Assembly: GCA_008933615.1 (NCBI GenBank)
Contig: WBUR01000004.1
Coordinates: 1 to 64,000 of the forward strand
Reading direction: 5' to 3'
Source: a bacterium
GTDB lineage: Bacteria; CLD3; SB21
DNA length: 64,000 nt
Position numbers and translations under genes: made by a program. This document shows, piece after piece, positions 45,829-58,266 of this stretch. The notes under the pieces are model-generated. The model was not told the DNA's origin. It did not search any database and saw nothing but the letters and a program-made list of their open reading frames with translations. The stretch's first letter is position 1. Each line of letters begins with the position of its first letter.

Positions 45829-46614
45829 TTATTTGAATTTTAATTTTACCAGTTCCATTTTAGCCCTACTGGAATTCGGGTTCAATTCCAAAGCTTTTTG
45901 ATAACAAATCCTTGCGCGTTCAATCTCATTGTTTTTCTCATAGGCATTCCCCAAAAACGAATAACATCCTTCCAAACCCCATCGAGGCGATAAAGAATCT
46001 ACCGGTGTTTCCATGCTTTCCTTCTCGAATAAGGACAATGCTTTTTCAAACTGGCTGATCGCTTTATCCGTTCCGCCGCCGAACATAGATGGCGTGTTCA
46101 TAGTTCCGATACCCATTAGATAAAATACTCGCGGGTTCTTGTCATTCGCAGAAACTGCTTTTTGAAACAAACCGTTGGACTTCGGACCCAACCACATTCC
46201 GGAAATTGGGCTGAACTGAATTTTCATTCCGGTTAACGATCCTAACAACGCATAACTGTCCGCATCTGTCTTATGCAAGCTAATTGCTTTTTCAAGCGAC
46301 TTTATTGCGTTTTCGACATGGCGCTTACCCGCGTCCTCATCGCGTGTGGATTCATCAACGTAAAGAAAATATATTGCCAATTGGTAATCGGCGTAGGCAT
46401 TCCAGTACAGAGATCGATAATCTTTTGGGGCAGCATCCACCGCCTTCGCTAAAATAGCCTTCGCTTCATCCATCTCAGATTTATTCCAGTGTTTCACAGC
46501 ATGGTCGATGGTCTTAATACCTTTAGTCAAAAGCATCGCACCCTCGTTTTCGTTCTGAGAATAAATCCGAGTGCATGTAAACAAAAAAATCAACAACATA
46601 CTTGTTTTTTTCAT
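45829..46614 (-). CDS. Exported TPR-repeat protein
   Basis: 261 residues after a strong ribosome site (GGAGGAACCGTGCT). Signal peptide 1-19 (LLIFLFTCTRIYSQ). Helix pairs follow: GIKTIDHAVKHWNKSEMDEAKAILAKAVDAAPKDYRSLYWNAYADYQLA is the first, DADSYALLGSLTG the middle part, and CYSFLGNAYEKNNEIERARICYQKALELNPNSSRAK a clear TPR near the C-terminus. It is the first gene of the operon that ends with the LytTR regulator. It probably binds a partner in the periplasm. Confidence 0.85.
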   Translation of the reverse strand: MKKTSMLLIFLFTCTRIYSQNENEGAMLLTKGIKTIDHAVKHWNKSEMDEAKAILAKAVDAAPKDYRSLYWNAYADYQLAIYFLYVDESTRDEDAGKRHVENAIKSLEKAISLHKTDADSYALLGSLTGMKIQFSPISGMWLGPKSNGLFQKAVSANDKNPRVFYLMGIGTMNTPSMFGGGTDKAISQFEKALSLFEKESMETPVDSLSPRWGLEGCYSFLGNAYEKNNEIERARICYQKALELNPNSSRAKMELVKLKFK

Positions 46615-46754
46615 AGCACGGTTCCTCCAATTGATTTTGATTTTTTTTTATGCAGTCAATATAACCGCGCTTGGGCATATCGAAAATCAATTAAAGTTGA
46701 AATAGCAAATAGTTCCTTCAAGTGCACCCAAAGACAGTTGAAACGCATTAAATG

Positions 46755-46783
46755 AAAAACCCCATGAAATACTATCATGGGGT
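46755..46783 (-). terminator. Rho-independent terminator at the end of the atp operon
   Basis: Stem ACCCCATG (46759-46766) pairs with CATGGGGT (46776-46783) around a 9-base loop. On the minus strand it is followed by TTTTTCATTT, 27 bp after the atpC stop codon. Confidence 0.9.
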
Positions 46784-46809
46784 CATTCACTTATTCGGTT
46801 TAATTTCTG

Positions 46810-47226
46810 TCACGGACGCGTTGCCCGCTTGGCTGCAATTTCCAAACGGTTTGCCGCACGTTGCAAAGCCTGATTAACCAGATCAATATCATAATTAGCC
46901 CGGTCTTCCAGCCGTTTTCGCGCGCGGTCATGCGCCAGCTTGGCGCGATTGACGTCAATATCCGCAGAATGTTCGCACGTTTCCGCCAATACCATGACTT
47001 TGTTGTCGTGGACATCCAGAAATCCTCCCCCGACAGCGTAATATTCTTCATACCCGTCTTCATGACGCAATCGCATTTCACCGATTTTAATTGATGAAAT
47101 AAACGCGGTATGTTTATTCAAAATCTCAAAACTGCCTACAGTTCCGGGAGCAACAACTCCACTGACCTCTCCGTCAAAAACGACTTTTTGCGGAGTAATA
47201 ACCTGAACATGAAAAGTTTTTTCCAT
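46810..47226 (-). CDS. atpC: F1 ATP synthase epsilon subunit
   Basis: 138 residues after AGGAATTTT. N-terminal beta-sandwich (1-88: HVQVITPQKVVFDGEVSGVVAPGTVGSFEIL, HTAFISSIKIG, YYAVGGGFLDVHDNKVMVLAETCE) and a C-terminal helical hairpin (about 90-138), present in full, so the inhibitory arm could exist. The subunit links gamma to the c-ring and regulates the enzyme. It is the last gene of the atp operon, before a terminator. Confidence 0.95.
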   Translation of the reverse strand: MEKTFHVQVITPQKVVFDGEVSGVVAPGTVGSFEILNKHTAFISSIKIGEMRLRHEDGYEEYYAVGGGFLDVHDNKVMVLAETCEHSADIDVNRAKLAHDRARKRLEDRANYDIDLVNQALQRAANRLEIAAKRATRP

Positions 47227-47271
47227 AAAATTCCTGCAATTAATCTGTTAACTCATGACACCAACGAAAAA

Positions 47272-48675
<1,404 letters not shown>

Positions 48676-48700
48676 TCATTTATTTAATTTAAACTAAAGT

Positions 48701-49804
48701 TTACAATTTCACATCTATACCAAAACTCCATCGGTTAATATCCCCCAAAGCCCCCATCCGTTGCTCTGAATATTCAAATTTTGGCGTAATTTCATAATGA
48801 GATTTCATAAAAAGTCTTGAAGGCAATTGTATACCAAAACCATATCTTTCTCCCCATACTTTTCCATTGCCTCTAATAAAATTTTTTGATGAAAATCGTA
48901 CAGATGCTATTTCGAGCATATTGATTTCCGTTCCGAAAATGAGTTCCTCACGCCCGGACTTGTATGAGTGATCGGATACAAAGACGTTCGCAGTACTAAA
49001 ATCTTGATAGGAGAAATGGTTTACTATTTCAAATACTTCTGCGGAACCATTCAAAATGTTTTTGTTGGTATAACTGAAACCATGTCCAATCCCCATACGA
49101 TAATTTCTCTCAACTAAAAACGCTATAGAAGTAAATGAGAAAAACACATTTTGAGAATCGATGACAAGCGAGCCGTTACCATGATACTTTGGATTACTAC
49201 CTATCAAATTATTTCCGGTGCTGGTTCCAATATACAAGATATTGTTACACCCTAAAACTCGCCCAATTGGAACTTTTGCCATCACACCTAAATCATACAA
49301 TGTAGCTTCCGCCGAAATTTTGTCGATTTGACTGCTAAAGCGCTTAATAGTTACACCAAAAGAAACCATGTCAAATATTTTGAAAGCATAATTTAGTGCA
49401 ATAACGTCGTCATGCGGCTCATAAGAGCCAATTCCTCCTTCAGGGAATTCTTCAGTCGTTTTTTTAATTGAACCAAAACTTACTCTACGATATGTAAAGG
49501 CTAATGACCCGAATTTCTTATGAGTATATCCTGCCGTCCAATTATGACTTGAGATACCCGCAAAATAGCCAACATTATCGTATTGAAGGGCCATGCCCCT
49601 CGTAAAACCAACTCCTGCCGGATTCCAATAACCGCTGTTCCATTGATCACCAATTGCAACCGTATTTCCTAAGCTGTGAGAACGCGCATCCGGCGTAATG
49701 TTAAGAACTACAAAAGTAAATAAATCACTATTTGTCTCTTGGCCTAAAAGAGAGTGTAAATTTAACAGTGCGAACAGAATGAGTATGGTTGTTTTCTTAA
49801 TCAT
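48701..49804 (-). CDS. PorV/PorQ-like outer-membrane beta-barrel protein inside the atp operon
   Basis: 367 residues from the ATG at 49804, where a signal peptide begins (IKKTTILILFALLNLHSLLGQ); the nearby AAAGGAA is very close to this ATG, so an upstream Met is an alternative. The mature start, FVVLNITPDARSHSLGNTVAIGDQWNSGYWNPAGVGF, is the hallmark of the PorV/PorQ/UPF0164 group ('ARS.GMG...WNPAG'), followed by barrel strands ending WSFGIDVKL. Relatives act in the outer membrane, some with type IX secretion. It lies between atpG and atpD on the same strand with short gaps. Link to ATP synthase is unexplained. Confidence 0.82.
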   Translation of the reverse strand: MIKKTTILILFALLNLHSLLGQETNSDLFTFVVLNITPDARSHSLGNTVAIGDQWNSGYWNPAGVGFTRGMALQYDNVGYFAGISSHNWTAGYTHKKFGSLAFTYRRVSFGSIKKTTEEFPEGGIGSYEPHDDVIALNYAFKIFDMVSFGVTIKRFSSQIDKISAEATLYDLGVMAKVPIGRVLGCNNILYIGTSTGNNLIGSNPKYHGNGSLVIDSQNVFFSFTSIAFLVERNYRMGIGHGFSYTNKNILNGSAEVFEIVNHFSYQDFSTANVFVSDHSYKSGREELIFGTEINMLEIASVRFSSKNFIRGNGKVWGERYGFGIQLPSRLFMKSHYEITPKFEYSEQRMGALGDINRWSFGIDVKL

Positions 49805-49847
49805 TTCCTTTGAAATCTTTTCATGTATTTCGTAGGCTCGCATATAT

Positions 49848-50735
49848 CTACTTCTGCAACGCCTCCGCTCCGCTGACCACTTCAAGGATTTCCTTGGTAA
49901 TCGCCGCTTGTCGCGCGCGGTTATATTTAAGAGACAATGTGCTTATCATTTCTCCGGCGTTCTCGGTTGCGGAATCCATCGCGGTCATACGCGCACCCAT
50001 TTCCGCCGCGAAAGATTCCAGCAATATACGCCACATCTGAACGTTAAGATGTTTCGGGATCAGGGTATTGATGATCTCAAACTGAGAGGGTTCGTATATA
50101 TAATCAGTTTCTATCTTATACTGGTTACCGTTACTTTCTACTTTTTCCGGCTCCACAGGCAAAAGCTTTTCGAGAACCAAATTCTGCTGCAACGCCGACT
50201 TGAATTCGTTGTACACCACGTACACTTCATCGGCGCGTTCTTCGTTGTATTCTTTTACGCAAGAAGAGATAATATCTGCGGCATTGCTAATGCTCATGGT
50301 GTTGAAGAAATTGTAAAACCGGCCCGCCACCTTAAATTGCCTCTTAACAAAAAATTCGTCACCCTTTTTTCCAACGGTTACCAACTTAAGGCGCCCCTTA
50401 TCGTGAAACGTTTTAAATTCGTTACTCATCAGGCTGTTGACTTTACGAATAATAGTACTGTTAAAAGCCCCGCATAAAGAACGGTCGGCCGTCACGACAA
50501 CCAGCAGCACGTTTTTGACGTCTCGTTTGCTGATCAGCGGATTAAGCCTCGCAACTTCGCAATTTGCAAGATGTTGGATCAGCGAACCCAAGGTATAAGC
50601 ATAGGGCCTTGCGGAAATGATATTTTCCTGAGCCCGGCGCAGTTTGGCCGCCGCAACCATCTTCATGGCTTTCGTGATCTTTTGAGTGCTTTTTACACTG
50701 ACAATGCGTCGTTTGATTTCACGTAACGTTGCCAT
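49848..50735 (-). CDS. atpG: F1 ATP synthase gamma subunit
   Basis: 295 residues after AAAGGGAATT. Typical N-terminus ATLREIKRRIVSVKSTQKITKAMKMVAAAKLRRAQ and C-terminus AEMGARMTAMDSATENAGEMISTLSLKYNRARQAAITKEI, the two long helices of the central shaft. The middle Rossmann-like domain has TADRSLCGAFN. It starts 8 bp after the last of three small lipoprotein genes that separate it from atpA. Confidence 0.97.
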   Translation of the reverse strand: MATLREIKRRIVSVKSTQKITKAMKMVAAAKLRRAQENIISARPYAYTLGSLIQHLANCEVARLNPLISKRDVKNVLLVVVTADRSLCGAFNSTIIRKVNSLMSNEFKTFHDKGRLKLVTVGKKGDEFFVKRQFKVAGRFYNFFNTMSISNAADIISSCVKEYNEERADEVYVVYNEFKSALQQNLVLEKLLPVEPEKVESNGNQYKIETDYIYEPSQFEIINTLIPKHLNVQMWRILLESFAAEMGARMTAMDSATENAGEMISTLSLKYNRARQAAITKEILEVVSGAEALQK

Positions 50736-50743
50736 AATTCCCT

Positions 50744-51094
50744 TTAATTTTTTTCAATTTCTTTCTCGTTCAAACTCTTCATCGCTTCGGCTTCAATCGC
50801 TTGTTTCAACAGACTGTCCAGCGCGACTTTCTTAACCGGATCAACGGCGATAGCCCGATAAGTATATTTGAAATCCATTGATGAAAAACCGTACATTCTG
50901 CCGATCGAGTCCAGCGCAGGTTCGGGATACGATTCCGGCTTTTGGTACTGCTTCATAAGACTATCTTCACGCAGCGCCGACACATACATTTTCACAAATG
51001 AATCCAATGGAATTTCCTGAGCATTTTTCTGTTTTGATTGACATCCTAATAACATAATTAAGGTTGTCAGCCCGAACATGACCTTCTTACTCAT
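50744..51094 (-). CDS. Small lipoprotein, third of a tandem paralogous set in the atp operon
   Basis: 116 residues. Lipoprotein signal with lipobox MLLGC (Cys about 18). The mature part shares with its two neighbours a short pattern: QEIPLDSFVKMYVSAL after the Cys, and YGFSSMDFKYTYRAIAVDPVKK near the middle. It has the shortest tail of the three (helical, Lys/Glu-rich). The pattern is reminiscent of DUF4296-type lipoproteins of Bacteroidota, but distantly. It starts 5 bp after the stop of the 125-residue paralogue and ends 8 bp before atpG. Function unknown. Confidence 0.78.
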   Translation of the reverse strand: MSKKVMFGLTTLIMLLGCQSKQKNAQEIPLDSFVKMYVSALREDSLMKQYQKPESYPEPALDSIGRMYGFSSMDFKYTYRAIAVDPVKKVALDSLLKQAIEAEAMKSLNEKEIEKN

Positions 51095-51099
51095 AACGT

Positions 51100-51477
51100 T
51101 TAGGGCGTTTCCTTTTTAGTGCTGTCTGCGTTTCTTATGGACTCTCCCTCGCGTAAGGTATTCGAAGATTTTTCACTTAAATACTGAAGCGACAGATCGT
51201 CAAACTTTTTCTTCAGATCGGGATTCGAATTGATCTGCTTGTAAGTAAATTTAAAATCATCCGGAGAATAATTAAACGGTTTTGTAAAAGGTTCGAGCTC
51301 TTCATTGGTAGCTTCCGCCGGCGATTGATGTTTTTTCATGAATGCGTCGTCGGAAAAGACCTTGAACCAGATCTTAACATAAGTTTCCATGGGAACTTCT
51401 TTCGGCTGCTTGCTGCACCCGGATCCCGCAATCATCGCCGTAACGATGACGCTAGTTAATATCCATTTCAATTTCAT
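51100..51477 (-). CDS. Small lipoprotein, second of a tandem paralogous set in the atp operon
   Basis: 125 residues after AAAGGACGTTGCT. Lipobox IAGSGC (Cys about 21). Shared pattern: KEVPMETYVKIWFKVFSDDAFMKKHQSP after the Cys, which matches the third copy's DSFVKMYVSALREDSLMKQYQKP closely, then FNYSPDDFKFTYKQINSNPDLKKKFDDL. The end is Ser/Asn/Lys-rich and probably disordered. No membrane span after lipidation, so it would hang from a membrane into the periplasm. Function unknown; only the tandem duplication is certain. Confidence 0.78.
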   Translation of the reverse strand: MKLKWILTSVIVTAMIAGSGCSKQPKEVPMETYVKIWFKVFSDDAFMKKHQSPAEATNEELEPFTKPFNYSPDDFKFTYKQINSNPDLKKKFDDLSLQYLSEKSSNTLREGESIRNADSTKKETP

Positions 51478-51507
51478 AGCAACGTCCTTTACTTTAGTAC
51501 ACTGCTG

Positions 51508-51939
51508 TTATTTAGTATCTTCTTTTTTCTCCATTTCTTTGTCGAACTCACCCATCATCTTCGAAATGGATTCAGCATCCATTCCCTGGGCTTTTAATTC
51601 TTCTTCCAACATCACTTTAGTAAATGCTTTGCCTAGTTCAGGATCCTCTTTGGCGATTTTGTTAATTGCTTCGCCGATCCCTTTGGCTTTTTCCATATCT
51701 TTATCATACATCTCTGCAGTGAATTTGAAATCGTCTGCGGAGAAGCCTTCCGCTTTGCTGTACGGGCTAACGACGTCATTGGCAATATCTTTCGGATTCT
51801 GACTGGTACTGGTTTTTTTATCAACCAACATCTTCATCATGATCTTCGCCATGCTGTCCGCAGGAATTTCTTTAGGCCCGCAGGAAATGATTGAGGTCAA
51901 AAGCGCAATGCCGACGACCATAGTGATTAGATTTTTCAT
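51508..51939 (-). CDS. Small lipoprotein, first of a tandem paralogous set, overlapping the atpA stop
   Basis: 143 residues, the longest copy. Lipobox SIISC (Cys about 20), then GPKEIPADSMAKIMMKMLVDKK and the shared core GFSADDFKFTAEMYDKDMEKAK, ending in a longer Met/Lys/Glu-rich helical tail (about 105-143). Its ATG overlaps the atpA stop as TAATG (one base shared), with the ribosome site AAAGGAG inside the end of atpA, so it is very likely translated in coupling with the alpha subunit. Function unknown. Confidence 0.8.
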   Translation of the reverse strand: MKNLITMVVGIALLTSIISCGPKEIPADSMAKIMMKMLVDKKTSTSQNPKDIANDVVSPYSKAEGFSADDFKFTAEMYDKDMEKAKGIGEAINKIAKEDPELGKAFTKVMLEEELKAQGMDAESISKMMGEFDKEMEKKEDTK

Positions 51940-53462
51940 TAGACTCCTTTGATTTTAAATGCCTTTTTGAAATCGCCGATGATCGTATTCAGTTGACTAC
52001 GAAAATCGTCTGTTAATTCTTTTTTAGCCATGATTTGATCCGTCAACGTTTTGTGGCGCAGTTCTATATTTTCAAGCAGTTCTTTTTCGAATCGTTTACA
52101 TTCTTCTACCGGGATTTCATCTAAAAACCCGTTCGTTGCGGCAAAAATGATCACGATCTGCTTATCAAATGAATACGGCTGATACTGACCTTGTTTGAGA
52201 ATCTCCACCAGTCTTGCTCCGCGGCGTAACTGCTGTTGCGTGGTTTTGTCAAGATCCGAACCGAATTTTGCAAACGCTTCCAGTTCACGGTATTGCGCAA
52301 GTTCCAATCGCAACCGGCCGGCAACCTGCTTCATTGCTTTGATCTGCGCGCTGCCGCCGACGCGGGACACGGAAATACCGACGTTGATTGCCGGACGTAC
52401 GCCGGAGTAAAACAAATTTGATTCCAGAAATATCTGCCCGTCGGTGATCGAGATCACGTTCGTCGGAATGTAGGCCGAAACGTCGCCCGCCTGCGTTTCA
52501 ATAATAGGCAACGCAGTCAGGGAACCGCCGCCTAACTTATCATTCAATTTCGCGGCACGTTCCAGTAATCGTGAATGCAGATAGAAAACGTCGCCCGGAT
52601 AGGCTTCGCGTCCCGGAGGACGGCGGAGCAAAAGCGAGACCTGGCGGTAAGCCACGGCATGTTTGGACAAATCATCATAGACGCACAAAGCGTGGCGCCC
52701 GCTGTCACGGAAAAATTCACCCATGGCTGCGCCGCTGTACGGTGCAATGAACTGCAATGGAGCCGCTTCCGATGCCGACGAGGAAACGACAATGGTATAT
52801 TCCATCGCGCCGGCATCTTCCAGGATCTTTACAACTTTCGCGATCGTCGATTCTTTCTGGCCGATACCAACGTAAATACAGTAAACGTCTTTTCCCTTTT
52901 GATTGATGATCGTGTCCACCGCAACGGCGGTCTTTCCCGTCTGACGGTCGCCGATAATGAGTTCACGCTGGCCTCTTCCGATCGGGATCATCGAATCAAT
53001 CGCTTTAATGCCGGTGGCCAATGGTTCCTTTACCGACTGTCTTTCGATCACTCCGAGCGCTTTTCGTTCGATCAGCGACGTGTGTTTGGAATGAATCGGG
53101 CCTTTGCCGTCAATCGGTTGTCCTAGCGCATTCACGACTCGTCCGAGCATTTCTTCGCCGACGGGAACTTCTGCGATCTTACCGGTACGTTTAACAATGT
53201 CCCCTTCTTTGATCATTTCGGTTTCGCCGAAAAGTACCGCGCCGACATTGTCTTCTTCCAGGTTCAAGATCATGCCCATGATCCCGTGAGGAAATTCTAT
53301 AAGTTCACTCGACATCGCGTTAGACAAACCGTAAATACGCGCGATACCATCGCCAACCTGTAATACCACGCCGGTTTCATATGTGTCAATTTCTCTTTCG
53401 AACTTAGAAAGCTGTTGCTTCAATATGCTTGAAACTTCATCCGGTCTCACTGATACAGCCAT
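51939..53462 (-). CDS. atpA: F1 ATP synthase alpha subunit
   Basis: 507 residues after AGGATAGGTATT. N-terminal [18 protein letters not shown], nucleotide domain with P-loop [33 protein letters not shown], and the alpha signature [18 protein letters not shown]-terminal helical bundle. It carries the regulatory nucleotide sites of F1. Its stop codon overlaps the start of the first small lipoprotein gene. Confidence 0.98.
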
Positions 53463-53524
53463 AATACCTATCCTCTTATATTGATGTATGTTTTATATAT
53501 AAATTTTTTAGATTGCTTTCCGTT

Positions 53525-54061
53525 TTATTCTGAGAACTGCTCACGGAGCCGTTCCAATTGGCGCTTTACGGAACCGTCGATCACCGTGTCGCCGAGGCGA
53601 ACCAAGAACCCGCCGATCAGTTGAGGATCCTTGCGAAAACTCAGATGAGGGGATTTACCCGAAAACGCGGCCAGCTTTCCCGTCAGAATCTCGATTTGTT
53701 TGGGATCGAGATCGACAACGGACACGACTTCTGCCTTAATAATGCCCAATTGTTCGTCGTGCAGCGCCATGAAATCTACGAGGATCTCATCCAAAATATC
53801 CTCGCGGCCTTTAGTGCATAAGACGACTAGAAAATCCAGCGTCTCTTTGGATAAGGTTTTCTCAAAAAGCGCTTTAAAAGTATTTATCTTCTGAATCGTA
53901 GTAATGATCGGATTCTTCAAAAATGTATTGAAGTCAGCGGATTGTCCGATAACGGAATGAATATGAAGTATATCATTATAAATTCTATCCAGCAATTTCT
54001 TGTCATTTGCCATTCCCAGCAATGCATTCGCATAACGATGCGCGGTTTTTTTATTTTTCAT
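53525..54061 (-). CDS. atpH: ATP synthase delta subunit (OSCP)
   Basis: 178 residues after AAGGATATATGGATTC. N-terminal six-helix domain (KTAHRYANALLGMANDKKLLDRIYNDI through LVVLCTKGREDILDEILVDFMALHDE) and C-terminal part with the family motif KDPQLIGGFLVRLGDTVIDGSVKRQLERL. It joins F1 to the b-subunit stalk. Gene order b-delta-alpha is the standard one. Confidence 0.95.
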   Translation of the reverse strand: MKNKKTAHRYANALLGMANDKKLLDRIYNDILHIHSVIGQSADFNTFLKNPIITTIQKINTFKALFEKTLSKETLDFLVVLCTKGREDILDEILVDFMALHDEQLGIIKAEVVSVVDLDPKQIEILTGKLAAFSGKSPHLSFRKDPQLIGGFLVRLGDTVIDGSVKRQLERLREQFSE

Positions 54062-54120
54062 GAATCCATATATCCTTCATTCCACTGTATAAAACGTCCG
54101 GTCAGTTTAAACCGACACAA

Positions 54121-54669
54121 CTAATTCTTACTTGTTGGCATTTCTTTAATAAAATCGTCCACGAGTTTTCTGTGTTTTTCAGCATCCAAATTAGCGCCGA
54201 TGATCTTGCCGGCAGCCTGAACCGCCATAGCGGCCACTTCGTTCTTCAAAAACACTAAGGCGGAATTTTTTTCGTTATCGATTTCTTTTTTGGCAGTTTG
54301 AAGAAGTTTAACTGCCTCGATCTTTGCCTGTTCCGCTATTTCATTTTTAAGTTTTTCAGCGTTTTCTTTTGCCTTACGCGCGATGTCCTGCGCCTCACGT
54401 TCTGCCTGCGCCAGCATTTCATTGTTCTTGGCGATGAGTCCCTCGGCGTCGCGTCGTGCTTTTTCCGCCTGCTCCAGAGAGTTCTTGATCTTCGTTTCCC
54501 GTTCCTGCAACGTCGTAATGATCGGCTTCCATGCAAACTTACCCAATAGAACAAGAAGTAATCCGAAAGTGATGAGTGTCCATATGATGAGGCCCGGATC
54601 AATGTCCAGCAACCCGCCTTTATGCCCGCCTTCTTCCAAAAGCATAAAAGTGATTAACAATGTTTTCAT
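54121..54669 (-). CDS. atpF: ATP synthase subunit b
   Basis: 182 residues after GGAAGAATT. A short N-terminus with Glu/Gly (LLEEGGHKGGLLDIDPGLIIWTLITF), one membrane helix (about 25-45), the motif GKFAWKPIITTLQERETKIKNSLEQAEKARRDAE, then a long Ala/Glu/Lys-rich coiled coil to the end. It is the peripheral stalk. A hairpin lies upstream between this gene and atpE. Confidence 0.95.
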   Translation of the reverse strand: MKTLLITFMLLEEGGHKGGLLDIDPGLIIWTLITFGLLLVLLGKFAWKPIITTLQERETKIKNSLEQAEKARRDAEGLIAKNNEMLAQAEREAQDIARKAKENAEKLKNEIAEQAKIEAVKLLQTAKKEIDNEKNSALVFLKNEVAAMAVQAAGKIIGANLDAEKHRKLVDDFIKEMPTSKN

Positions 54670-54714
54670 AATTCTTCCGTTTAAAGTATTTTTTAATAAA
54701 TACGGATATACCTA

Positions 54715-54748
54715 AAGCGATGGGAGGGAATCCGTCCTCCCACCGCTT
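54715..54748 (-). promoter_or_regulatory. Intergenic hairpin between atpE and atpF
   Basis: Stem AAGCG and TGGGAGG pair with CCTCCCA and CGCTT around an 8-base loop, with a single A/C mismatch. There is no T-run after it on the minus strand, so it is not a normal terminator. It sits 18 bp after the atpE stop; a likely use is to protect the 3' end of atpE messenger so that more subunit c is made than subunit b. Confidence 0.6.
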
Positions 54749-54766
54749 ATATCATAATTATCCGGA

Positions 54767-54994
54767 TTATTTCAACGCCATAAGGATACAAATAACTTCT
54801 GCAAAAAGCGCTACACCTTCGATCAGAGCGGCCGCGATGATCATGGTCGTTCTGAGATCGCCTGTTGCTTCCGGCTGACGTGCAGCGCCTTCAAGAGCCG
54901 ACGCGGCTAATTTACCAATACCAAGCCCCGCGCCCAACACTGCTAAACCGGCGCCCAGACCCGCACCCAAATATCCTAATCCAATAGCTTCCAT
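54767..54994 (-). CDS. atpE: ATP synthase subunit c
   Basis: 75 residues after the strongest ribosome site of the operon (GGAGGAATTTCAC). Two helices with a polar loop ARQPEAT; helix 1 has a glycine ladder (GAGLGAGLAVLGAGLGIG) and helix 2 the ion-binding Glu in AALIEGVALFAEVICIL. The usual sodium-site Gln in helix 1 is not seen, so proton use is more likely. The subunit forms the membrane rotor ring. Confidence 0.96.
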   Translation of the reverse strand: MEAIGLGYLGAGLGAGLAVLGAGLGIGKLAASALEGAARQPEATGDLRTTMIIAAALIEGVALFAEVICILMALK

Positions 54995-55063
54995 GTGAAA
55001 TTCCTCCGTTAAATAATGTAGTGAATGAGTTTAATTGCGATGTATTTCATTTCAAAAAATTGC

Positions 55064-55996
55064 TTAATGATGTTCAGCTTCCACAGCATGTTCTTCGTGC
55101 CCGCTGTGCAATGCCATGCCGATGAAGATCGCCGACAACAGCGTGAAAACATATGCCTGCAGGAACGCAACAAAAATTTCCAGCATGTAAATAAACAACG
55201 CCATCGGAATGGAAACGAAAATGCCCACAAATACGGATTTCAGAACAAAGATCAATCCTATCAGCGACAGGATCACCACGTGGCCTGCAGTCATGTTCGC
55301 AAAAAGACGGATACAAAGAGCAAAGGGTTTGGTAAAAAGTCCGATGAATTCGACAGGAACCATTATAACAATCAGCACCGCCTTCATCGCAATATTCATA
55401 TCCATTTGGTCTATGCCGCCCATCAAATGCCTGAAATATCCGACAATACCCTGCGCTTTTACGGCAGAATACTGGGTGACCAAAAAAGTACAAACGGCCA
55501 GCGTCGCGGTCACGGCAATATTGCCTGTTGCAGTTGACCCGAAGGGAATCAACCCCAGCAGGTTGGCAAACAATATGAAAAAGAAAACCGTTAGGAAATA
55601 ATTAACGTAGGCATCGGTTTTTTCGCCGAAATTCGGACGAACAACTTCTTCGCGGATATAAACGATGATAGATTCAAAAAAATTATAAAGCCCTTTTGGA
55701 ATTAATTTTGGCCTTGCCAAAACTGTAAATACCAAAAGCAGCAATAATGCTACGATCCACATCATTACAACGTGTTTGGTCGGAGACAAGTCAATCGTCA
55801 TACTCCCGATGTGGATAGGGTCAAAATGCGGGAGTTTAACTACTCCAAAAAACGGTAATTCGAGTTCGTGCGAATTGGTAATGTGGTGAAGAATCGTTCC
55901 GCCAATGTCAACTTTTCCTGTTTCTTCGACTGCCTTAGCTGCAGCCTTAGTGCCCTCTTGCGGGGCGTGGGGATCTTGCAGTAAATTCAATAGCAT
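55064..55996 (-). CDS. atpB: ATP synthase subunit a
   Basis: 310 residues after AGGAAAATAGAACGC. A long N-terminal region (1-75) before helix 1, as common in FCB bacteria, ends with ISNSHELELPFFG-like and IDLSPTKHVVMMW. Five to six helices follow: FTKPFALCIRLFANMTAGHVVILSLIGL holds the essential Arg in the half-channel helix, and the last helix pair ends in LEIFVAFLQAYVFTLLSAIFIGMALHSGHEEHA. It forms the stator channel against the c-ring. Confidence 0.95.
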   Translation of the reverse strand: MLLNLLQDPHAPQEGTKAAAKAVEETGKVDIGGTILHHITNSHELELPFFGVVKLPHFDPIHIGSMTIDLSPTKHVVMMWIVALLLLLVFTVLARPKLIPKGLYNFFESIIVYIREEVVRPNFGEKTDAYVNYFLTVFFFILFANLLGLIPFGSTATGNIAVTATLAVCTFLVTQYSAVKAQGIVGYFRHLMGGIDQMDMNIAMKAVLIVIMVPVEFIGLFTKPFALCIRLFANMTAGHVVILSLIGLIFVLKSVFVGIFVSIPMALFIYMLEIFVAFLQAYVFTLLSAIFIGMALHSGHEEHAVEAEHH

Positions 55997-56083
55997 GCGT
56001 TCTATTTTCCTGTTTTAATTCCGCATATGCGGGTCAATAAATAAGCGGCCGTTTTTATGCCAGAGCCGGCTCCCGGATGGACA

Positions 56084-56467
56084 TCAGCTCTTCATCACCT
56101 TCTTCAACTGGAGACCACGATTAATAAAGTAAAGTTCCACCATTTGAAACAGGAGATAATAAATGCCAAATGTGACAATGAACAATTTTATATCAATATC
56201 GACAACTTTGACCAAGATGACGATCAATATACCCACGAGCAGCATCCGAATTCCCATACCGCCCATGACTATACTTAGAAACAGCTTCATGGATTTATTA
56301 AATGCCCATCGCGTCATGTAAAAGCCGGACAATACGTGCACCAAAGCTAAGCCGCAGGCGCTTATCACAACCGTGATTTCATTGTTCTCGGTTAGAAATG
56401 CATTCATGATGAAGAACACAACCAACGTAATCGTCATTACCGTCAGCAAGAAATATTTCTGACTCAC
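56084..56467 (-). CDS. atpI: AtpI-like ATP synthase accessory membrane protein
   Basis: 127 residues with four membrane helices and short loops, the size and place (just before atpB) of AtpI. The GTG start overlaps the stop of the atpZ-like gene by 4 bp, indicating coupled translation. Phrases such as MGGMGIRMLLVGILIVILV (helix 3) and a final helix followed by INRGLQLKK fit the family loosely. AtpI is thought to help c-ring assembly or supply Mg2+. The call rests as much on position as on sequence. Confidence 0.75.
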   Translation of the reverse strand: MSQKYFLLTVMTITLVVFFIMNAFLTENNEITVVISACGLALVHVLSGFYMTRWAFNKSMKLFLSIVMGGMGIRMLLVGILIVILVKVVDIDIKLFIVTFGIYYLLFQMVELYFINRGLQLKKVMKS

Positions 56468-56733
56468 AATCTGTCTTTTTCTTTTTTCGCGCGACCCGGT
56501 TTAGGTAAATTAGATACAATTCTGTACAAATTATAGAACCCGCCAAAGAGGCCTAAAAAAACGCCCGTTAAAACAAACAAAACCTTGGTCTCAAATTTTT
56601 CATCCAGCCAATGACCAAACCACGACAAAAAACCTAAAGTTAAAGCAAACTGCCATCCCCATGTCATGAACGGGCCTAATTGACGTGTCGAATCGGCAAA
56701 GTTTTTCAGGGGCTTTTTATCGTTCGTATTCAA
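56464..56733 (-). CDS. atpZ: AtpZ/AtpI-family ATP synthase accessory protein
   Basis: 89 residues; TTG start with AAAGG upstream, 3 bp after the bactofilin stop. Two membrane helices (about 24-42 and 50-72) with the family pattern GPFMTWGWQFALTLGFLSWFGHWLDEKFETK and FLGLFGGFYNLYRIV; 'G...D......P/K......G...G....' is typical of AtpZ. AtpZ and AtpI together have been linked to divalent-cation movement for ATP synthase. It is cotranslated with the next gene. Confidence 0.85.
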   Translation of the reverse strand: MNTNDKKPLKNFADSTRQLGPFMTWGWQFALTLGFLSWFGHWLDEKFETKVLFVLTGVFLGLFGGFYNLYRIVSNLPKPGRAKKEKDRL

Positions 56734-56736
56734 AAA

Positions 56737-57147
56737 CTAACCTTTTACGATCTTCATTTCACCCGTTGCCGGGTTATCCGTAATGATCAGCGGTTTTTCT
56801 TTCACTGCTTTCATTGAGCATTTACCGTCAAAGCTCGCGCCTTCATCAACCACGAGCCGTCGCGCGCGAAGATCACCCATAACGCCGGACTTAGCTTCCA
56901 TCACCAGTTTATCCTGCGCCGAGATATTCCCGCTGACTCTTCCGCCGATCACGATATTTTTCGCATCAATATCACCATCAACATTTCCGGAGGATCCGAC
57001 CGTCACGAGATCGTGGCACACGACTTTTCCTTTGATCTCTCCTTCAATTCGAATACTCGAGGATGCCGTGATCGAGCCGACGATTACCGTTCCGCGTCCG
57101 ATCAAATTCAGATTTGTGCCCGATTGAATTTCATTTTCTTTTGCCAT
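56737..57147 (-). CDS. Bactofilin
   Basis: 136 residues from the ATG at 57147. A short N-terminus (KENEIQSGTNLNLIGRGTVIVGSI) precedes a beta-helix of about ten short turns (about 18-120), with the bactofilin spacing: IRIEGEIKGKVVCHDLVTVGSSGNVDGDI, KNIVIGGRVSGNI, GVMGDLRARRLVVDEGASFDGKC. Bactofilins form cytoskeletal filaments at the inner membrane. It follows an M23 peptidase gene by 13 bp, the same pairing seen for bactofilins that control cell shape, and leads straight into the atp genes. The ribosome site is weak. Confidence 0.93.
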   Translation of the reverse strand: MAKENEIQSGTNLNLIGRGTVIVGSITASSSIRIEGEIKGKVVCHDLVTVGSSGNVDGDIDAKNIVIGGRVSGNISAQDKLVMEAKSGVMGDLRARRLVVDEGASFDGKCSMKAVKEKPLIITDNPATGEMKIVKG

Positions 57148-57160
57148 AATTTTTCTCTGC

Positions 57161-58078
57161 TTAGTGACGAACGGTTGAGACCTTAAGAATATCCTGAAAT
57201 TGCGGAATATACTCTGCCGGGTCCTGCGGTATTCCGTCTTTCCATATTTCAAAATGTAGATGAGTTCCCGTCGCGAGTTGCCCTGTTTTTCCTACGGTCG
57301 CAATAATATCGCCGCCTTTTACAAATCCGCCCTCGCGACACAATAAATACTGAGCATGTTTATAGATCGAAAAAAAACCAAAACCGTGATACAAAATGAC
57401 CGTGTTGCCATAGTCGCTCAGCCAATCCGCCATGACCACCCATCCGTCGGATGCGGCCTTAACGGGCGCGCCTTCCTCCGCAACGATGTCGTATCCTAAA
57501 TGAGAGCTATTTCCAAATAAATCATTCATCTTATTCCCTTTAGAAAATCCCTGCGATATGAAACGGCTGTTGACCGGCATAAGCGAAGGAATGATCTTCG
57601 TATACATTAAATAATCGGAAGGAATCGCCCTTTCCTGGTCCATCCCCTTTATCTGGCTCCTGGACAAATTGTCGTCAGCATAGGAATACAGATCTAAATT
57701 TTTCTCGTTGGCAACCGTTGTTCTGCCAGGACCGTTACCCACAGAGTCCTGTACGTTGCCCAAAAGACCGAACACCATTCGAATCTTCTCGTTTTCCTGC
57801 TTGACTAGTCGGTATTGTCTTTCAATCAGCTTGATGCGTTTATTATCAACTACTAGCTGATCATACTTCTTCTGAAGGTCGTCGTAATAAAAAATTTTAT
57901 AAGAATATGCATAATAGTAAATTAAAGAGCCTGTGAAAAAGAGCAACGCTATCGCTAAAAAACCGGCTAAAAGCTTTAGCCGACTCATTCGAATGCGAAA
58001 GCTTTTAGGATCAGAGCTGGCATCGAACATCACCAGAAGTGTGATGTATTTATTAGAGGTTTTTTTTGCGCTCTGCAA
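57161..58078 (-). CDS. M23-family (LytM) peptidoglycan endopeptidase with membrane anchor
   Basis: 305 residues; TTG start, chosen because the family N-terminus (NKYITLLVMFD...KSFRIRMSRLKLL) begins here. One membrane helix (about 36-58), a coiled coil (about 65-110, DLQKKYDQLVVDNKRIKLIERQYRLVKQENEKI) and a periplasmic peptidase domain (about 175-290). Zinc ligands: SSHLGYDIVAEEG (His, Asp) and ATGTHLHFEIW (His-x-His), with a further His in IYKHAQYLL. The site is complete, so it should be active on peptide cross-links. It is the first gene of the unit with the bactofilin and the atp operon. Confidence 0.92.
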   Translation of the reverse strand: MQSAKKTSNKYITLLVMFDASSDPKSFRIRMSRLKLLAGFLAIALLFFTGSLIYYYAYSYKIFYYDDLQKKYDQLVVDNKRIKLIERQYRLVKQENEKIRMVFGLLGNVQDSVGNGPGRTTVANEKNLDLYSYADDNLSRSQIKGMDQERAIPSDYLMYTKIIPSLMPVNSRFISQGFSKGNKMNDLFGNSSHLGYDIVAEEGAPVKAASDGWVVMADWLSDYGNTVILYHGFGFFSIYKHAQYLLCREGGFVKGGDIIATVGKTGQLATGTHLHFEIWKDGIPQDPAEYIPQFQDILKVSTVRH

Positions 58079-58266
58079 TATTTTCTCTTTTAAATTAACG
58101 GACCTTTTACTCCGTCATAAGCCAAAATTCACAATAAAATCAATCATTAAGAGAACATTGCCGTTTTTCAAAAAGGCAACGAAATATATTGAAATGATTA
58201 TGAATTGTCAATCTATTTTTGATAAAAGTCACCGTATCGAAATTGAATATTAACAACAAATAAAAA

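Follow-up and report, generated by a model that had tools for sequence, protein, structure and literature searches.

Tandem genes for putative lipoproteins distantly related to DUF4296 between atpA and atpG in the ATP synthase operon of one bacterial family

The atpA–atpG junction and the lip proteins

The window, by which we mean the whole 64,000-nucleotide stretch of DNA analysed, carries on its minus strand an atp operon with the gene order M23 peptidase, bactofilin, atpZ, atpI, atpB, atpE, atpF, atpH, atpA, lip1, lip2, lip3, atpG, a PorV/PorQ-like gene, atpD and atpC. The names of the atp, M23 and bactofilin genes were read from their sequences, whereas the PorV family was assigned by an NCBIfam profile scan (PorV_fam, E 6.4e-22, 78.5 bits, cut-off 90); the start of the PorV-like gene at 49804 was chosen from the signal sequence. 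The features considered here are as follows.

56737-58078, minus strand, M23 peptidase and bactofilin genes, preceding atpZ
51939-53462, minus strand, atpA, upstream neighbour of lip1
51508-51939, minus strand, lip1, a 143-residue DUF4296-like lipoprotein; TAATG overlap with the atpA stop
51100-51477, minus strand, lip2, a 125-residue DUF4296-like lipoprotein; lipobox imperfect at -3
50744-51094, minus strand, lip3, a 116-residue DUF4296-like lipoprotein; stop 8 bp before atpG
49848-50735, minus strand, atpG, downstream neighbour of lip3
48701-49804, minus strand, gene for an outer-membrane protein of the PorV/PorQ family, located between atpG and atpD; below the NCBIfam PorV_fam cut-off

The coordinates, sizes and order of the three open reading frames between atpA and atpG agree with a preliminary description of this DNA, and the junctions that it reported are all seen in the window: the lip1 start and the atpA stop have one base in common (TAATG), a Shine–Dalgarno-like AAAGGAG for lip1 sits within the last codons of atpA and lip3 ends 8 bp before atpG. 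The remaining gaps are 30 bp between lip1 and lip2 and 5 bp between lip2 and lip3. On the operon strand no terminator-like site occurs from atpA to atpG, and lip1 and lip3 contain two weak promoter-like sites; across 46600-58200 there are 20 promoter-like sites, compared with 21.3 in shuffled sequences.

Pairwise BLASTP indicates that lip1, lip2 and lip3 are mutual homologues, with identities of 28–34% and E values of 2e-12, 5e-18 and 2e-7 (single comparisons, to which the signal peptides contribute), as was to be expected of the one duplicated family that had been proposed. The same proposal gave all three proteins a lipobox and an 'FS' core. Judged by eye, lip1 (IIS-C) and lip3 (LLG-C) fit a lipobox, but lip2 (GSG-C) has a glycine in place of the usual residue at -3; the 'FS' core holds for lip1 and lip3 but reads 'YS' in lip2. 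The lipid-anchor cysteine is invariant across 12 aligned lip sequences. It is followed by G, S and Q in the window proteins, and the orthologues have S, A, G or Q; neither an Asp at +2 nor an acidic run is seen. By the lipoprotein sorting rules of Escherichia coli and the Bacteroidota this would suggest an outer-membrane location facing the periplasm, and the mature lip proteins are most likely to be lipid-anchored on that side.

Between the window's own genome (G000) and G001, dN/dS is 0/0.18 for lip1, 0.010/0.10 for lip2 and 0.029/0.23 for lip3; between G000 and G002 the corresponding values are 0.009/0.32, 0.034/0.23 and 0.078/0.37. For comparison, the within-genus values are 0.003/0.34 for atpA and 0.013/0.59 and 0.015/0.82 for atpG. 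The lip genes are therefore under weaker constraint than atpA and atpG within the genus, as far as few substitutions allow this comparison, and dN below dS in the genus, again on few substitutions, points to real, constrained proteins.

The AlphaFold2 model of lip2 (12 aligned sequences) has a mean pLDDT of 81.6 (83–97 on average in the blocks spanning residues 21–110), and that of lip1 (the three window sequences) has a mean pLDDT of 82.8; both are all-helical. The two models have four helices after the cysteine in common order; lip2 has one additional short helix, and the C-terminal part of lip1 is longer and split. Searches of solved structures with Foldseek gave nothing usable (best E 1.1 and 2.8 for the two models), and with VIA-align the best Z score for lip2 was 5.0, limited to the last helix. 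At the sequence level, the lip profile matched three solved structures with E values of 0.016 to 0.95, the best of which is a de novo designed protein, and a DUF4296 set matched two (best E 0.14). The lack of convincing structure matches does not in itself point to a new fold.

Distribution of the lip genes

Orthologues of the lip genes lie at the atpA–atpG junction in G001, G002, G003, G004 and G005 in 3, 3, 3, 2 and 2 copies, respectively. The first two genomes belong to the genus of the window and the other three are further members of its taxonomic family. Including G000, the genes are present in all six family genomes with an assembled junction, which represent four genera, and the atpA–atpG linkage pointed out earlier is hence conserved inside the family. 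The seventh family genome (G006) was set aside, as its assembly holds no atpA at E ≤ 1e-80. It yields only a piece of atpG with 40% identity, which would be consistent with either a missing operon or a foreign contig.

The junctions are tight in three of the four genera. In G003 atpA and lip1 overlap by 8 bp, lip1 and lip2 overlap as TGATG, and lip2 and lip3 also overlap if a presumed TTG start is accepted, while in G004 lip1 follows atpA by 12 bp and overlaps lip2 as ATGA. The junctions of G005 are loose, with gaps of 95, 92 and 27 bp and no overlaps. Tight coupling of lip to atp genes is therefore not universal in the family, and production of the lipoproteins and ATP synthase at a constant ratio, as suggested earlier, is conjecture.

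In a tree of the mature parts, the lip2 and lip3 sequences of G000–G003 form clades with support of 96/93 and 96/97, respectively. Since these clades are supported across G000–G003, the lip2/lip3 duplication is older than the split between the window's genus and that of G003. The separation of lip1 from lip2 and lip3, among the deepest forks, is weaker (81/95), and L151, a DUF4296 protein discussed below, falls on the lip1 side on a long branch.

A profile of the three window sequences searched against 60 genomes gave strong matches in G000–G005; other matches (in G018, in G052 and at a second place in G003, E 0.07–0.10) are noise. The search was extended with a 12-sequence profile to 386 genomes, 13 of which match at E ≤ 0.01. 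All 16 strong matches (E ≤ 7.8e-33) lie at the atpA–atpG junction of the six family genomes. Seven genomes outside the family have one weak match each, with E values from 7.7e-5 to 9.4e-3, the best being a 117-residue lipoprotein in G351. By BLASTP no atp gene occurs within about 1.5 kb of six of these seven loci, the match in G367, for which there was no locus, being left out. In G007 and G008, which belong to the same class and to a sister family, lip genes are absent from the junction and atpA and atpG are separated by 51 and 62 bp.

Loci of named organisms were collected with AtpG, taking the best 80 of the 575 matches listed (best identity 56%); these 80 span Ignavibacteria, Melioribacter, KSB1, Calditrichota, Bacteroidota and others. 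By BLASTP at E ≤ 1e-5, lip homologues are missing from all of these best 80 of 575. The distance from atpA to atpG is less than 200 bp in 75 of them, so that this junction appears to be rarely opened. The gap exceeds 200 bp in the other five of these best 80 of 575: L056, L059, L094, L120 and L113. The wide gaps of L056 and L059 hold no operon-strand reading frame over 70 residues. Two Ignavibacteria have a different, non-lipoprotein gene of 90–91 residues between atpA and atpG (L094:6705-6980 and L120:6720-6992), and L113 has an unrelated gene there. In G056 two unrelated reading frames of 116 and 167 residues occupy the same position (L035:1238-2081, minus strand).

The preliminary description had taken profile matches lying mostly far from atp genes as evidence against its reading. 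The strong matches in the family are all atp-linked, while no atp gene was found in the flanks of about 1.5 kb of the DUF4296 relatives taken from other genomes. The lip–atp linkage is a lineage-specific trait and not a general feature of ATP synthase.

The PorV-like gene between atpG and atpD is also found in G001, G002 and G004, and not in G003 or G005. At E ≤ 1e-5 no homologue of it is present in the 80 named loci (the best of 575 listed), some of which extend too little beyond atpG. Among the same best 80 of 575, M23 homologues occur in 36 and bactofilin homologues in 45, which indicates that a neighbourhood of cell-envelope and atp genes is common.

Relation to DUF4296

DUF4296 (PF14129) comprises small lipoproteins of the Bacteroidota and their relatives. 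In a Pfam scan (gathering score 27 bits) lip1–lip3 do not match PF14129 at E ≤ 10, the four orthologues from G004 and G005 do not match at E ≤ 1 and no match is found in G000–G006 at E ≤ 0.01. Other Pfam and NCBIfam families gave sub-threshold noise only for lip1–lip3.

In a profile–profile comparison with hhalign, the 12 lip sequences and ten DUF4296 proteins over the cut-off aligned with a probability of 96.7% (E 4.5e-10) over their full length and at 90.6–91.0% (E about 1e-6) when the signal peptides were removed, compared with at most 1.8% in 100 column shuffles and 0.2–0.3% for reversed profiles. The DUF4296 alignment was made from ten of the 11 over-cut-off proteins from named genomes (L144, which has a long tail, was left out, and L136, a further protein over the cut-off, was not included). 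The lip1 group alone gave 89% and the lip2/lip3 group alone 56%; without L151, which bridges the two sets, the value was 62%. L151 scores 43.9 bits as DUF4296 (cut-off 27) and matches lip1 by BLASTP with an E value of 1e-7 over 93 columns (a single comparison), while its match to lip2 covers 28 columns only, mostly signal peptide. L151 carries KEIPMETFVNIY, for which the lip2 counterpart is KEVPMETYVKIW.

Like the lip proteins, those of DUF4296 have the lipid-anchor cysteine, then a segment resembling '(E)IP.(D/E).F..I' and later a 'K(Y/F)....(D/E)(F/Y)..T' segment, and both are found in the FCB group and are similar in profile–profile and BLASTP comparisons. In contrast to DUF4296, the lip proteins fall under the Pfam cut-off, their genes lie inside the atp operon and they occur in two or three copies, not mostly in one. 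Judged from these alignments, the lip proteins are distant relatives of DUF4296 and not members, and the likeness suggested in the preliminary description is upheld by the 91.0% for mature parts and the BLASTP bridge from lip1 to L151.

PF14129 matches in seven of 98 relatives, once over the cut-off, and in no member of the window's family, and in 13 of 18 chosen named genomes, with one match each. A mixed profile matches in 14 of 31 genomes (E ≤ 0.01). As this profile includes sequences from G000, G005, G007 and G008, matches there arise by construction and we use only the absence of further copies. In the family it finds only atp-linked copies (3, 3, 3, 3, 2 and 2), in the sister-family genomes G007 and G008 one off-operon copy each, and in six other genomes one copy each, apart from G011, which has a further one at E 0.0066. 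Seven of 12 chosen named genomes match, six with one match and one with two, the second being weak.

Outside the family, no atp gene was found in flanks of about 1.5 kb around the DUF4296-like loci (L136–L155, L160, L161, L164–L169 and L175–L182, several of which are one gene fetched twice). The neighbours, named by eye, vary and include glnA, rhomboid-like, radA, ispG and other genes; with such varied surroundings no function is suggested by them. At L050:1474-1815 (minus strand) and L137:1387-1701 (plus strand), which are from different families, the DUF4296-like gene adjoins a gene for a Peptidase_MA_2 and PD40-propeller protein, a possible lead to the function of stand-alone DUF4296. The name 'DUF4296' has zero occurrences in the full text of 5.39 million open-licence papers, and the string 'DUF' is absent from the available part of a paper on the BAM of Bacteroidota (PMC12611786).

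Interpretation of the atp linkage

The standard bacterial atp operon has the order atpBEFHAGDC. The order is also found in the available part of PMC5709465. The family of the window keeps the order atpI-B-E-F-H-A-G-D-C but has two or three lip genes after A and ahead of G and, in some of its genomes, a PorV-like gene that separates G from D. No lipoprotein at the atpA–atpG junction appears in the available parts of PMC5709465, where the word 'lipoprotein' occurs zero times, or of PMC10197588, and nothing on point regarding lipoproteins in atp operons was found in the open-licence literature. As far as these searches show, lip genes in an atp operon are newly described: the arrangement is new, and the kind of lipoprotein is known but unexplained. 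The lipoprotein YbjP, a partner of TolC according to the part of PMC13095208 available, is comparable as an idea only, in that a small uncharacterized lipoprotein partners an envelope machine; the machine differs.

In our view, capture followed by duplication is the simplest history, since relatives are mostly single, with no atp gene in the flanks covered, and the copies found in the family are all atp-linked. A single stand-alone gene of the DUF4296 superfamily, encoding a small helical lipoprotein, would have entered the operon at the atpA–atpG junction in the common ancestor of the family and would then have been duplicated there into lip1 and lip2, with lip3 probably derived from the lip2 line. 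Movement into the operon, as opposed to out of it, is suggested on grounds of parsimony. The copies would be translated as part of the operon, stop and start codons overlapping or nearly abutting in three of the four genera, and their output would follow ATP synthase and growth, the duplication probably serving growth-linked dosage. The mature proteins would have a separate function in the envelope that requires no contact with the rotary enzyme, and we infer that they did not become ATP-synthase subunits. To this reading, a captured and duplicated stand-alone gene with its own envelope function for which the atp operon gives strong, growth-linked expression, we assign a probability of roughly 0.55.

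The lip genes might instead have arrived by a chance insertion that was kept since its removal would harm translation of atpG, their position having no functional meaning. Unrelated genes do occupy the junction in G056, L094, L120 and L113, and the loose junctions of G005 also fit; on the other hand, the two or three paralogues are distinct, have diverged and are retained, dN being lower than dS within the genus, and passengers kept by chance should presumably differ in content from one genus to the next, which makes such an origin unlikely. The lip proteins could also be periplasm-facing accessory or assembly factors of the family's F1Fo ATP synthase, or may anchor the enzyme to the outer membrane or the wall. 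This would suit genes that stay between those for the alpha and gamma subunits in all six genomes that could be read, that overlap in three of the four genera and of which no further copy was found in the family genomes at E ≤ 0.01; the gene order kept across four genera would also fit. We nevertheless consider it quite unlikely. A subunit or assembly factor present wherever the operon is would not be absent from G007, G008 and all 80 named loci (the best 80 of 575 listed), as the junction lip genes are, and the flanks of the DUF4296 relatives taken from other genomes contain no atp gene. In addition, comparison of seven operon genes (atpB, E, F, H, G, I and Z) of three family genomes with 12–15 chosen FCB sequences shows no more than two inserted and three deleted columns specific to the family. 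So few indels do not speak for a new docking site, yet would be compatible with a new contact, and an accessory confined to one lineage need not accompany every operon. That the lip proteins are periplasmic-side partners of the family's ATP synthase, as an envelope-tethered accessory, strikes us as decidedly doubtful; we know of no such protein in any other F-type enzyme.

An outer-membrane complex of the lip proteins with the PorV/PorQ-like protein, encoded from the atp operon, would account for the PorV-like gene in the operon of G000, G001, G002 and G004 and for its NCBIfam match, which is under the family cut-off. We think it very improbable, as G003 and G005 have lip genes and no PorV-like gene between atpG and atpD, and the PorV-like proteins of G000 and G004 are merely 25% identical.

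High interest would attach to the lip proteins only if their contact with ATP synthase were true. On the capture reading that we prefer, the atp-linked family offers a testable handle on DUF4296, and a captured, duplicated lip gene appears to have been kept across four genera, which may be a natural case of the dosage of an envelope protein being tied to the output of ATP synthase.
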